Made by a program: the position numbers and the translations under genes | From: Candidatus Omnitrophota bacterium | Lineage (GTDB): Bacteria > Omnitrophota > Gorgyraeia > Gorgyraeales > Gorgyraeaceae | Reading direction: 5' to 3' | Assembly (NCBI GenBank): GCA_018902915.1 | Contig: JAHIPS010000072.1 | Coordinates: 1 to 42,082, forward strand | Length of the DNA stretch: 42,082 nucleotides | The notes under the pieces: generated by a model | What the model was told of the DNA's origin: nothing | Databases searched by the model: none | What the model saw: only the letters and a program-made list of their open reading frames with translations | Shown: positions 1,164 through 31,276 of the stretch, in pieces | Numbering within the stretch: position 1 is the stretch's first letter | Layout of the letters: each line of letters opens with the position of its first letter

Positions 1164-1547
1164 TTAGATTATCTCAATCTTTACCTTAATAAGGCCCTGA
1201 GTTAGATCTGCGATTTGGGAGAAGGCGTGCTGGGTCAGGTCTATGATTCGGCCTTTTTGGACTAATCTTTTGGCTGGACCTCGGTCATTTACTCGAACCA
1301 GTATGGATTTTCCATTTTCCAGGTTCGTGACCATTAGGTTGGTATTGAAGGGCACATCCCACATGGCGCAGGTAAGGGAGGAGTCATCGAATATTTCCAT
1401 GTTGGCAGTGGTTTTAAGGATGCCAGGGTCGTTCTCAGAGTACCAGGAGGCTATACCTTTATATATAATAGCGCTGGAGGCCACATCCTGGGCTGGTATA
1501 AGCGGCATTAAGAGTGAAATTACCAGGATAAGCGCTATTTTCTTCAT
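1164..1547 (-). CDS. rlpA: RlpA-like double-psi beta-barrel protein, exported
   Basis: This 127-residue protein has an N-terminal signal peptide (MKKIALILVISLLMPLIPA) and then one double-psi beta-barrel domain with the RlpA hallmarks GIASWY, VTNLENGKS, VRVNDRGP and IIDLT. Family members bind or cleave septal peptidoglycan. The start is the ATG at 1545-1547, preceded by a GGGGG Shine-Dalgarno-like run. A longer frame reaching 1673 would translate through a riboswitch and is rejected. Where catalytic RlpA has a His in 'AAHxxLP', this protein reads CAMWDVP, so the His is absent; the Asp of NDRGP is kept. It may bind rather than cut peptidoglycan. There is no SPOR domain. Expression is probably controlled by cyclic-di-GMP. 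Confidence 0.85.
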   Translation of the reverse strand: MKKIALILVISLLMPLIPAQDVASSAIIYKGIASWYSENDPGILKTTANMEIFDDSSLTCAMWDVPFNTNLMVTNLENGKSILVRVNDRGPAKRLVQKGRIIDLTQHAFSQIADLTQGLIKVKIEII

Positions 1548-1558
1548 GAAACCCCCAA

Positions 1559-1595
1559 ATAAAAAACCTATTCCGCGCTTAAAAGAATAGGTTTT
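1559..1595 (-). terminator. Leader terminator of the rlpA riboswitch
   Basis: On the minus strand AAAACCTATTC (1585-1595) pairs with GAATAGGTTTT (1563-1573) and runs into a U-tract. It lies between the cyclic-di-GMP aptamer and the rlpA start, so it is the likely expression platform. Confidence 0.85.
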
Positions 1596-1603
1596 AACAG
1601 GGT

Positions 1604-1690
1604 TCGGTAATCCAGCCGCCTTATCCGCCTTAGGCGGATTTAGGCCTGTTGACTTTGCGCCCCACTCTTTCAAGCGGTTTGCCTTTATCG
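1604..1690 (-). promoter_or_regulatory. Cyclic-di-GMP class I (GEMM-I) riboswitch aptamer upstream of rlpA
   Basis: Read on the minus strand, the leader carries the GEMM-I signature in order: AAGGCAAACC, a hairpin capped by a GAAA tetraloop (CGCTTGAAAGAGTG), GGCGCAAAG, CAGGCCTAAA, a second hairpin made from the self-complementary ATCCGCCTTAGGCGGAT region, and GGCGGCTGGATTACCGA. The base expected to contact ligand (second G before CAAACC) is G, as in c-di-GMP rather than c-GAMP variants; this assignment rests on recalled numbering. The aptamer is followed by an intrinsic terminator and then the rlpA ATG. Confidence 0.92.
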
Positions 1691-1718
1691 TCCTACATAT
1701 TCAGTTGTCTCTAATTAA

Positions 1719-28597: not shown

Positions 28598-30055
28598 ATG
28601 AATGTTTCAAACAAGAAGGTTTTGCTCGCGGAGCATGACCAGAAAATAGCGGATATATTAATATATCTTCTAAATGCGTGGGATTACGAGGTTGTTATTG
28701 CCGCTGACGGCGAGTTTGTCCTCGAGCTGGTCAGGCGCGAGCATCCGGATATCATTATAATAGATTGTAACCTGCCAAAGATAGACGGGTTTCAGGTCTC
28801 AAAGTCTTTGAAGGAAGATTTTATAACAGCGCACATACCTGTAATAATACTCATAGATAAAAAACAGATAAGAAAAAGGATGCTCGAGATAGAGCAGGGC
28901 GTGGATGACTATATCGCGAACCCGCCTGACCCCATAGACCTCGAGGTCAGGATGGAGATGGCGATGCGCCGCACTACCCACCAGCTGCACGCGAATGCAT
29001 TGACGCGGCTCCCCGGGAACAGGCAGATAGAAAAGATCATCCAGTCAAAATTTGATGAAGGCGCTGAGTTTTCCGTCGCGTATTATGACATAGATCATTT
29101 CAAGTCATTTAACGATAAGTACAATTACATGAAAGGCGATGCTGTTATCCGCCAGGTCGCGCATATCATATCGCAGATAGTAAAAAAATGCGGCAACAAG
29201 GATGATTTTGTCGGACACATCGGCGGCGATGATTTTGTGGTGGTGACCACGCCTGAGAGAGACAGGCTGATCGCGTCCGAGTCGATATTGATATTTAGCA
29301 GGATAATGCCGTTTCATTACAGCAGGGAAGACAGGGAAGCCGGACACATTATCGCAAAAGACAGAAAAGGAAATGTTGTAAGAACTCCTCTCATGAGCAT
29401 TTCAATAGCCATTGTAAACAACAGGGAATTCAAGATAGGTAACATGGTGCAGCTCATGGAGATAATCGCTGAGATAAAGGAGTATTTAAAAAGGCTTCCT
29501 GGCAGCAATTTCCTGGTAAACCGCAGGGGGCCGGAAAAAAAGGAATTTATCTATTCGGAATCAGAGACCCTCGAGCGCAAGACTCAAAGGCCTGCGCCAA
29601 GTTTCAGGTACAGGCCGCTTGGCCAGATACTGGTAGAGTCCGAGGTCATCACTGTCGAGCAACTCGGGGCCGCGCTGAACAAGCACTGGTCAACAGGCCA
29701 GAGGATAGGCCAGAGCATCATGGGTCTTGGCATGGCCAGCGCGGGCGACATAGCCAGAGCGCTGGAGATCCAGCTGAATGTTCCGCATTTTGATATAAAA
29801 AAGCTGGAGAAGAATCTGGACCTGAGGCAGGTCGTGGATAAGATCCCGGCTGACTTGATGAGAGATCGCGGGGTAGTGCCTGTTAAAAAAGAACAAAACG
29901 TGGTAAGTCTCGCGATGCTCAATCCCAAAGATATCGAGGTAATAGATAAGATAAGAGGTTTTACCGGTTGTAATATAGCCACATTTTTTGTTCTGGAAAA
30001 TGAGTTTTCAGAGATACTCGGGAGGACAATAAAAAAAGCCGATAAAGGCGATTAG
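28598..30055 (+). CDS. Receiver-GGDEF(GGDDF)-MshEN protein
   Basis: The 485-residue protein has a receiver domain (1-125) with phosphoacceptor D56 (IIIIDCNLP), a GGDEF-type domain (about 130-300) and an MshEN domain (about 337-475), the N-terminal domain type of GspE/MshE ATPases. The MshEN part has two turns of its repeat, LGQILVESEVITVEQLGAAL and RIGQSIMGLGMASAGDIARA; known MshEN domains bind cyclic-di-GMP. The active-site motif is GGDDF (209-213), with Asp in place of the usual Glu, so cyclase activity is uncertain. The protein could make, sense or only bind cyclic-di-GMP. A cyclic-di-GMP riboswitch lies on the other strand across its 3' end. Confidence 0.87.
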   Translation: MNVSNKKVLLAEHDQKIADILIYLLNAWDYEVVIAADGEFVLELVRREHPDIIIIDCNLPKIDGFQVSKSLKEDFITAHIPVIILIDKKQIRKRMLEIEQGVDDYIANPPDPIDLEVRMEMAMRRTTHQLHANALTRLPGNRQIEKIIQSKFDEGAEFSVAYYDIDHFKSFNDKYNYMKGDAVIRQVAHIISQIVKKCGNKDDFVGHIGGDDFVVVTTPERDRLIASESILIFSRIMPFHYSREDREAGHIIAKDRKGNVVRTPLMSISIAIVNNREFKIGNMVQLMEIIAEIKEYLKRLPGSNFLVNRRGPEKKEFIYSESETLERKTQRPAPSFRYRPLGQILVESEVITVEQLGAALNKHWSTGQRIGQSIMGLGMASAGDIARALEIQLNVPHFDIKKLEKNLDLRQVVDKIPADLMRDRGVVPVKKEQNVVSLAMLNPKDIEVIDKIRGFTGCNIATFFVLENEFSEILGRTIKKADKGD

Positions 30056-30160
30056 CGTCAGCTTTTCATCGCTCGGCAACCCAGCCGCCATATCCGTAAA
30101 GGACTTAGGCCTGTTGGCTTTGCGCCCCCTGATTTCTCTAGGGTTTGCCCTTATCGGCTA
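30031..30160 (-). promoter_or_regulatory. Cyclic-di-GMP class I (GEMM-I) riboswitch on the strand opposite the GGDEF gene
   Basis: On the minus strand the order is GGGCAAACCC, a GAAA-capped hairpin (TAGAGAAATCA), GGCGCAAAGCC, ACAGGCCTAAG and GGCGGCTGGGTTGCCGA, a clear GEMM-I aptamer with G at the ligand-contact position. GCCGATAAGGGC before it (30147-30158) pairs with GCCTTTATCGGC after it (30038-30049), and that arm runs into seven T, so the outer helix doubles as a terminator. The predicted RNA is about 129 nt and overlaps the GGDEF stop codon region. No minus-strand gene follows; the element either yields a small RNA or controls antisense readthrough into the GGDEF gene. Confidence 0.88.
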
Positions 30161-30165
30161 ATACA

Positions 30166-30193
30166 AGTATACCATAAAATAGGGTTTTTTCAA
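30166..30193 (-). promoter_or_regulatory. Promoter for the antisense riboswitch RNA
   Basis: On the minus strand TTGAAA (30188-30193), a 16-nt spacer and TATACT (30166-30171), with TGG just before it, predict a start near 30159, at the first base of the outer helix. Confidence 0.72.
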
Positions 30194-30208
30194 TAGAGGG
30201 AGGTATTG

Positions 30209-31276
30209 ATGGTAAGAGGTAGAGCAGCTATCGTGGTGTTATTTTTAGTTATCTTGGGCGTGTTTCTAAGCCATGATTTTACATTCGCGTATAATGAAGA
30301 AGGCGACGAAGATGATTTTTATGAACCATCGCGAGGCCCGGTTCCAATACGAAACCAGATGCCGCTCTATCTTTTTTATTTGCAATTGGCTCCGGATAAG
30401 GCCAGTGTTGTAGAGAAGAACGGATTTCTTATAAACACGGATTACACTGTCTCAAACATAACTGTTAGCGCGTTCACGCCAGCGACCTCGCTTTACGATG
30501 TGCAGATAGATCTGGAGGTCCAGAGACTGACGCTCGATTTTAGATATGGGCTTTATGACAATCTGGAGGTAGGGTTAGAGATCCCTTATATAGCCCTGTG
30601 CAGCGGGTATTTAGATGATCTTACAGAATCATTCGAGGACGGGATCGGCGCGAGGACGCCCCGTTCGAGAGAGCGGCAGGGTTCAAACGAGTTTGATTAC
30701 AGTTTTCAGTACCAGAATAGATACTTAATAAGGGAATCGAGATCTAAGCGCGGTATTGGAGATATGGTGCTCAATGCAAAATATCAACTCCTTAAAGAGT
30801 CGTGGTACTCGATATGGCCAAATCTTTCTTTGCGCGGGGCAGTCAAGTTTCCCACGGCTGACGAGGGTGACCTGATAGGGAGCGGTAACTTTGATTACGG
30901 TGTCGGGGTCTTGCTGGACAAGAGTTTTTTTGAAAGAGTTTTTATTTACATGGGCGGTAATGCCATGAGGATAAAAAAACCCGATGTCCTGGACGCGCTT
31001 GGTATTGACGAAGGACTGTATTCTTACCTGTTTGCGCTGGAGTTCTTTTTTACAAAAAGATTTTCTGCTATTGTGCAATTTACCGGCAACACGACCCCGT
31101 ATCCCGAGAGCAGCACAAATCCCCTGGACAATGATGCGCATGACTGGCTGCTGGGATTTAATTACAGGCTGAAGGAAAAATCCAATATCACCTGGAATTT
31201 CGCGGTTGTTGAGAACATAAGCGCTGCGTCCAGTCCGGATGTGAGTTTACACACAGGCCTGGGTATAGAATTTTAA
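30209..31276 (+). CDS. DUF3187-type outer-membrane protein
   Basis: The 355-residue protein has a signal peptide (about 1-27, ending TFA) and the DUF3187 opening GPVPIRNQMPLYLFYLQ followed by alternating beta strands to an aromatic C-terminal end (GLGIEF), as in outer-membrane barrels. ATG 30209 is chosen with GGGAGG 5 nt upstream. The function of the family is unknown. The stop overlaps the start of the pseudouridine synthase (TAATG). Confidence 0.8.
   Translation: MVRGRAAIVVLFLVILGVFLSHDFTFAYNEEGDEDDFYEPSRGPVPIRNQMPLYLFYLQLAPDKASVVEKNGFLINTDYTVSNITVSAFTPATSLYDVQIDLEVQRLTLDFRYGLYDNLEVGLEIPYIALCSGYLDDLTESFEDGIGARTPRSRERQGSNEFDYSFQYQNRYLIRESRSKRGIGDMVLNAKYQLLKESWYSIWPNLSLRGAVKFPTADEGDLIGSGNFDYGVGVLLDKSFFERVFIYMGGNAMRIKKPDVLDALGIDEGLYSYLFALEFFFTKRFSAIVQFTGNTTPYPESSTNPLDNDAHDWLLGFNYRLKEKSNITWNFAVVENISAASSPDVSLHTGLGIEF

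Follow-up and report, generated by a model that had tools for sequence, protein, structure and literature searches.

Riboswitch aptamers are nearly always interpreted as switches for the next gene. The described RNA closest in layout to the one presented here is merRNA of Bdellovibrio bacteriovorus, a massively expressed c-di-GMP riboswitch RNA of 445 nt without a downstream ORF, which was reported without conservation outside Bdellovibrio and proposed to serve as a c-di-GMP reservoir (PMC3627812). Signaling via such a free c-di-GMP RNA is proposed, and unproven, for merRNA. Clostridioides difficile harbors class I aptamers (Cdi-1-4, -5, -6, -7, and -10) without detectable downstream coding sequence that show very low expression; most strains lack Cdi-1-4 and -5, which are duplications and for which a lack of function has been suggested (PMC6200980). 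Since five weakly expressed gene-less class I aptamers exist in C. difficile, orphan status alone is no proof of function. In Bc1 of Bacillus thuringiensis, which precedes genes, probing showed the first terminator to unfold with c-di-GMP (PMC11218506). A mostly predatory or parasitic way of life has been proposed for the Omnitrophota (PMC10066038); a literature search for riboswitches in Omnitrophica found nothing.

The window, i.e. the whole analyzed stretch of 42,082 nucleotides, belongs to a 1.8 Mb metagenome-assembled genome of a Candidatus Omnitrophota bacterium. On its minus strand, it probably encodes a free-standing c-di-GMP-binding noncoding RNA of merRNA-like layout that recurs throughout the class. 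Two covariance models were applied, one of the orphan RNA (R1) and a broader one (R2). The locus comprises the following features:

28598-30055, plus strand: response-regulator/degenerate GGDEF (GGDDF)/MshEN gene (Pfam; motif), its last 25 nt overlapping the RNA
30206-31276, plus strand: DUF3187 gene, TTG start at 30206 with an ATG just after; the region upstream holds the promoter of the RNA on the other strand
30188-30193, minus strand: putative -35 hexamer TTGAAA (sequence; promoter test of 81 RNAs with control)
30166-30171, minus strand: putative -10 hexamer TATACT, extended by a preceding TG (sequence; promoter test of 81 RNAs)
30031-30159, minus strand: putative free-standing c-di-GMP-I noncoding RNA, approximately 129 nt with deduced ends (full model, R1 144 bits, R2 141 bits; conservation)
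30072-30159, minus strand: c-di-GMP-I (GEMM-I) aptamer (RF01051, 67.5 bits; ligand-site residues invariant, n=58 RNAs)
30149-30159, minus strand: 5' arm of the end-to-end helix, AGCCGAUAAGG (covariation, 8 of 11 pairs changed on both sides)
30048-30071, minus strand: linker from aptamer to 3' arm, CGAURAAAAGCYGANGCU conserved in the family, variable elsewhere (alignments)
30037-30047, minus strand: 3' arm of the end-to-end helix, CUUUAUCGGCU (covariation; comparison with other loci)
30031-30036, minus strand: U-tract of the terminator, UUUUUU (sequence)

The first-pass annotation had described this element as a GEMM-I aptamer with its own promoter, no minus-strand gene behind it, and an outer helix ending in a U-tract, and all four points were borne out. 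The minus strand from 30159 to 30072 scores far above the gathering score of 35 of the Rfam c-di-GMP-I model (RF01051; E 3.1e-11). The two promoter hexamers are separated by a 16-nt spacer and would place the first RNA base at about 30159. Downstream of 30031, the minus strand contains only shadow ORFs within the plus-strand GGDEF-MshEN gene; no minus-strand gene follows in the window, and the same-strand downstream gene characteristic of a cis-acting riboswitch is missing. Judged from sequence alone (promoter, terminator, and context), the locus is an own transcription unit with an aptamer and without a downstream ORF, as in merRNA, and a c-di-GMP-binding small RNA appears plausible as its product. 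The ligand-contact residues of the aptamer are G20, A47, and C92 (Vc2 numbering). Since the ligand-site residues are invariant in 58 RNAs and the GAAA loop and its receptor show little or no variation, the orphan RNA is expected to bind c-di-GMP. A match to RF03167 (c-di-GMP-I-GGC), reported for two family members barely above the gathering score, was discarded; the diagnostic G is absent, the first A after GC being A.

The aptamer is enclosed by an outer helix of 11-13 bp, AGCCGAUAAGG(GC)/(GC)CUUUAUCGGCU, in which 30159-30147 pair with 30049-30037, directly followed by the U-tract (30036-30031). The fold z-score of the window's RNA is -3.85. Among 59 sequences, the helix is 95.7% paired in an alignment that was fitted to the model and therefore favors pairing; the two-sided changes at 8 of the 11 positions (e.g. 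UGCC/GGCA, GGCC/GGCC, GACC/GGUC) are not created by the fitting. A chance helix was rejected on the basis of this covariation and the controls. A U-tract follows the outer helix in 65 of 82 RNAs, a second hairpin terminator is present in 43 of 82 (10% of shuffles), and a terminator of one kind or the other in 78 of 82. The 17 RNAs without a U-tract nevertheless retain the outer helix, and 13 of them possess a separate terminator. The helix is thus kept even where it does not act as terminator, suggesting that its role is structural. Two other candidate terminators were rejected, one at the 3' end of the aptamer (GCCGA), which shows no covariation in the family alignment and is broken in some members, and one in the linker (AAAAGCYGA), also without covariation in that alignment.

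The first-pass annotation further supposed that ligand binding closes the outer helix and thereby ends transcription. In predicted folds, which are equilibrium predictions and do not address co-transcriptional folding, 74 of the 82 RNAs form the helix without ligand at P>0.9; it is predicted to contribute about 10 kcal/mol to the free fold and 6.7 kcal/mol with the aptamer fold held, and no competing antiterminator stood out. Because the helix is predicted without ligand and no antiterminator stands out, termination would be largely independent of c-di-GMP. Together with the persistence of the helix in RNAs lacking a U-tract, these predictions do not support ligand-gated termination as the core role of the orphan RNA; a local role is conceivable.

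Within the window's family, GEMM-I copies are found in all 19 genomes and the GGDEF-MshEN gene in 17, in one of them broken. In 15 of these 17, the orphan RNA lies opposite the 3' end of the gene, i.e. on the opposite strand and less than 500 nt from the putative target, as is typical for antisense riboswitches; the gene-plus-antisense arrangement that had been proposed for inspection in relatives is conserved in the family. Since it is kept in 15 genomes, a riboswitch that recently lost its downstream gene was rejected. The RNA overlaps the last 25 nt of the gene in 8 of the 15 genomes, as in the window, where the U-tract sits in the last codons; in the other 7, it ends at or before the stop codon. 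Genome G005 has an intact GGDEF-MshEN gene without an adjoining orphan RNA. In G010 (L051, G010:C30, near 2589), the RNA is a 3' remnant without promoter, and the gene lacks codons ~67-122. Mean pairwise identity among 14 family sequences amounts to 82% for the RNA and 66% for the promoter region vs 38-44% for the flanks, which argues against a chance occurrence of the RNA. One point of the earlier description needs correcting: in the opposite gene, assigned to the GGDEF-MshEN type with Pfam, the motif is GGDDF and not GGDEF in each of the 17 family members in which it was examined. The GGDEF domain lacks an RxxD inhibitory site in all 17 orthologs, and in the first MshEN motif P replaces R. 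Enzymatic activity is doubtful and c-di-GMP binding by the protein uncertain. On the other side of the RNA, its promoter is located directly before the ribosome-binding site of the DUF3187 gene on the opposite strand (30160-30206), so transcription of the two may interfere.

Matches to R1 were detected in 295 of 384 phylum genomes, a count that includes ordinary GEMM-I riboswitches. R2 with at least 95 bits was found in 99 of the 384 sampled genomes, about a quarter, from 23 families that all belong to the window's class. This cut-off is approximate: the free-standing plan scored 95 bits or more, ordinary riboswitches of the test set 90 or less. Of 25 loci that exceed the cut-off and did not enter the training set, 23 form 9 or more of the 11 outer pairs; the structured set was collected with a helix-containing model, which favors helix-bearing matches. 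Nearly all of 40 fetched loci, taken from the best matches outside the family, share the plan of the window's RNA: a promoter, NGCCGAUAARGG, the aptamer, in some loci bearing a long P3 extension, a linker, and CYUUAUCGGCN. A sigma-70-like promoter precedes 71 of 81 RNAs, vs 6% of shuffles and 2 of 29 ordinary c-di-GMP-I riboswitches, and in most of these RNAs it ends 5-7 nt before the first base of the helix. These figures derive from metagenome-assembled genomes, mechanical ORF calls, and sequences related to each other within families.

An exact signature search of 84,980 species genomes yielded 15 contigs, all from Omnitrophota except one labeled Auribacterota, in which the same plan (L087, 4505-4696) precedes a GTP cyclohydrolase I gene by ~110 nt. 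None of the viral contigs searched carries the RNA. One genome (G291) contains two free-standing copies in different contexts (L147, L151). An asymmetric internal loop, AAGCCGU(stem)AGUKAGGCA (L038-L050, L137, L141, L150-L153, L165), recurs in the long P3 extension in several families and may be a tertiary or protein-binding motif.

The gene neighborhood varies across the class. The RNA is found behind trpF and before rsmE, behind a lipoprotein gene and before GH1, next to fur, or opposite alr. The next ORF lies on the same strand in 50 of 82 cases and on the opposite strand in 30; family f8 and some further families have a gene on the same strand (GH1, rsmE, fur) that begins within ~20-200 nt. 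The best GGDEF-MshEN homologs of 37 other genomes are located on other contigs or tens of kb from the RNA, and among these wider relatives the association is not kept outside the window's family, apart from G291 (homolog at 1.2 kb, same strand). Since neighbors and GGDEF homologs shift between families, the RNA rather than its neighbor seems to be the conserved entity; the position opposite the GGDEF-MshEN gene would then be a location inherited in one family.

Ordinary members of the riboswitch class served as comparators, one of them in the window:

1603-1693, minus strand: ordinary c-di-GMP-I riboswitch (RF01051), followed by a separate terminator and then by an rlpA-like (DPBB) gene at 1550-1164

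It shows 6 of the 11 outer-helix pairs, and the rlpA-type riboswitches of the family mostly keep 3-6. The unit of riboswitch, terminator, and rlpA-like gene (1164-1693, minus strand) recurs in other family genomes. Most of the other GEMM-I copies inspected in this family precede genes, as riboswitches usually do; at one locus (L011, 1501-1778, G007:C4), tandem GEMM-I aptamers with a terminator between them precede a gene for a small secreted protein.

Since its architecture recurs across genomes without a fixed neighboring gene, the element is most likely a stand-alone signal-binding RNA and not a switch of the gene on the opposite strand. Its promoter would start the transcript at the first base of the 11-13 bp helix, the complete c-di-GMP-I aptamer would follow, and the 3' arm would then close the molecule. 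An intrinsic terminator (U-tract on the helix, separate hairpin, or both) would end the RNA at ~125-225 nt. The closed end-to-end structure may render the RNA stable, enabling it to hold c-di-GMP as a reservoir or buffer, or to act in trans in a c-di-GMP-dependent manner. That such a closed RNA controls no neighbor, serves class-wide as reservoir or c-di-GMP-gated trans-acting RNA, and evolved or was kept independently of merRNA is about an even proposition. A narrower form dispenses with storage: the RNA would pair with distant mRNAs or bind a protein via its linker or long P3 extension, depending on c-di-GMP. The invariant linker core within the family and the recurrence of the P3 motif in several families agree with this form, but the linker sequence is not conserved between families; this form is tentative and takes up a minor share of the probability assigned to the free-standing RNA as a whole.

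Two explanations tie the RNA to a neighboring gene instead. As an antisense-acting riboswitch, it would terminate under c-di-GMP control, with read-through antisense RNA or colliding polymerases lowering expression of the GGDEF-MshEN gene (and of DUF3187) in a feedback loop comparable to the ubiG-mccBA S-box or the pocR B12 riboswitch; a feedback loop on the GGDEF gene had been envisaged in the first-pass annotation. That 15 of 17 family genomes have the RNA on the strand opposite the gene, that the U-tract overlaps the last codons in 8 of 15, and that both RNA and gene are damaged in G010 fits this scheme, and c-di-GMP riboswitches were the most antisense-enriched class in a survey (PMC9943018). 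However, synteny within a single family is expected by descent, and outside it the RNA adjoins unrelated genes, far from the GGDEF homolog except in G291. Moreover, the protein has a degenerate GGDEF motif, formation of the helix is predicted even in the absence of ligand, G005 retains the gene without the RNA, and the RNA reaches only to or short of the stop codon in 7 of 15 genomes. Antisense feedback is therefore not supported as the core role, although a local one is conceivable, and the explanation as a whole is improbable. It is also unlikely that the RNA is an ordinary c-di-GMP-gated terminator whose target varies by lineage (GH1, rsmE, fur, and others) and, in the window's family, has disappeared or been replaced, with the RNA left behind as a relic. 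Same-strand genes close behind the RNA in several families, the 50 of 82 same-strand next ORFs, and the tandem terminators known from Bc1 (PMC11218506) would suit it. Yet the supposed relic is 82% identical between genera, against 38-44% in the flanks, with promoter and U-tract intact, which indicates selection; a second terminator is often placed between RNA and gene, and the following genes are unrelated between families, whereas rlpA-type riboswitches retain theirs. In family f8 and a few others, the RNA may control the next gene in cis by means of tandem terminators.

If a free-standing RNA is indeed encoded here, a conserved aptamer RNA without a gene would imply that c-di-GMP signaling can run through free RNA, and a solution shared by two presumed predator lineages would represent testable biology. 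For searches of metatranscriptomes, the orphan RNA offers a concrete target. In comparison with RF01051 riboswitches, it contains the aptamer in full, including the GAAA loop, its receptor, and the ligand-site residues, but in the window it lacks a regulated gene, its promoter starts at the end-to-end helix, and the terminator directly follows this helix. With antisense-acting riboswitches (the ubiG-mccBA S-box, the pocR B12 riboswitch, and those surveyed in PMC9943018), it shares the aptamer at the 3' end of a gene on the opposite strand; unlike in those systems, the association with the gene is limited to one family, and the predicted folds give no sign of ligand-gated read-through. With Bc1, it shares a c-di-GMP-I aptamer that has two terminators close together behind it, but Bc1 precedes genes and its first terminator opens with c-di-GMP. 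The gene-less Cdi RNAs are likewise class I c-di-GMP aptamers without a downstream gene; unlike them, the Omnitrophota RNA is conserved over 23 families, and on this conservation the case for its function rests. The nearest parallel is merRNA, also a noncoding RNA built on a c-di-GMP aptamer without a downstream ORF, in a host that is a bacterial predator, although the predator parallel between Omnitrophota and Bdellovibrio is at most suggestive. In contrast to merRNA, the RNA described here would be short (~125-225 nt) and is distributed across a class of another phylum; the resemblance to merRNA is one of layout.
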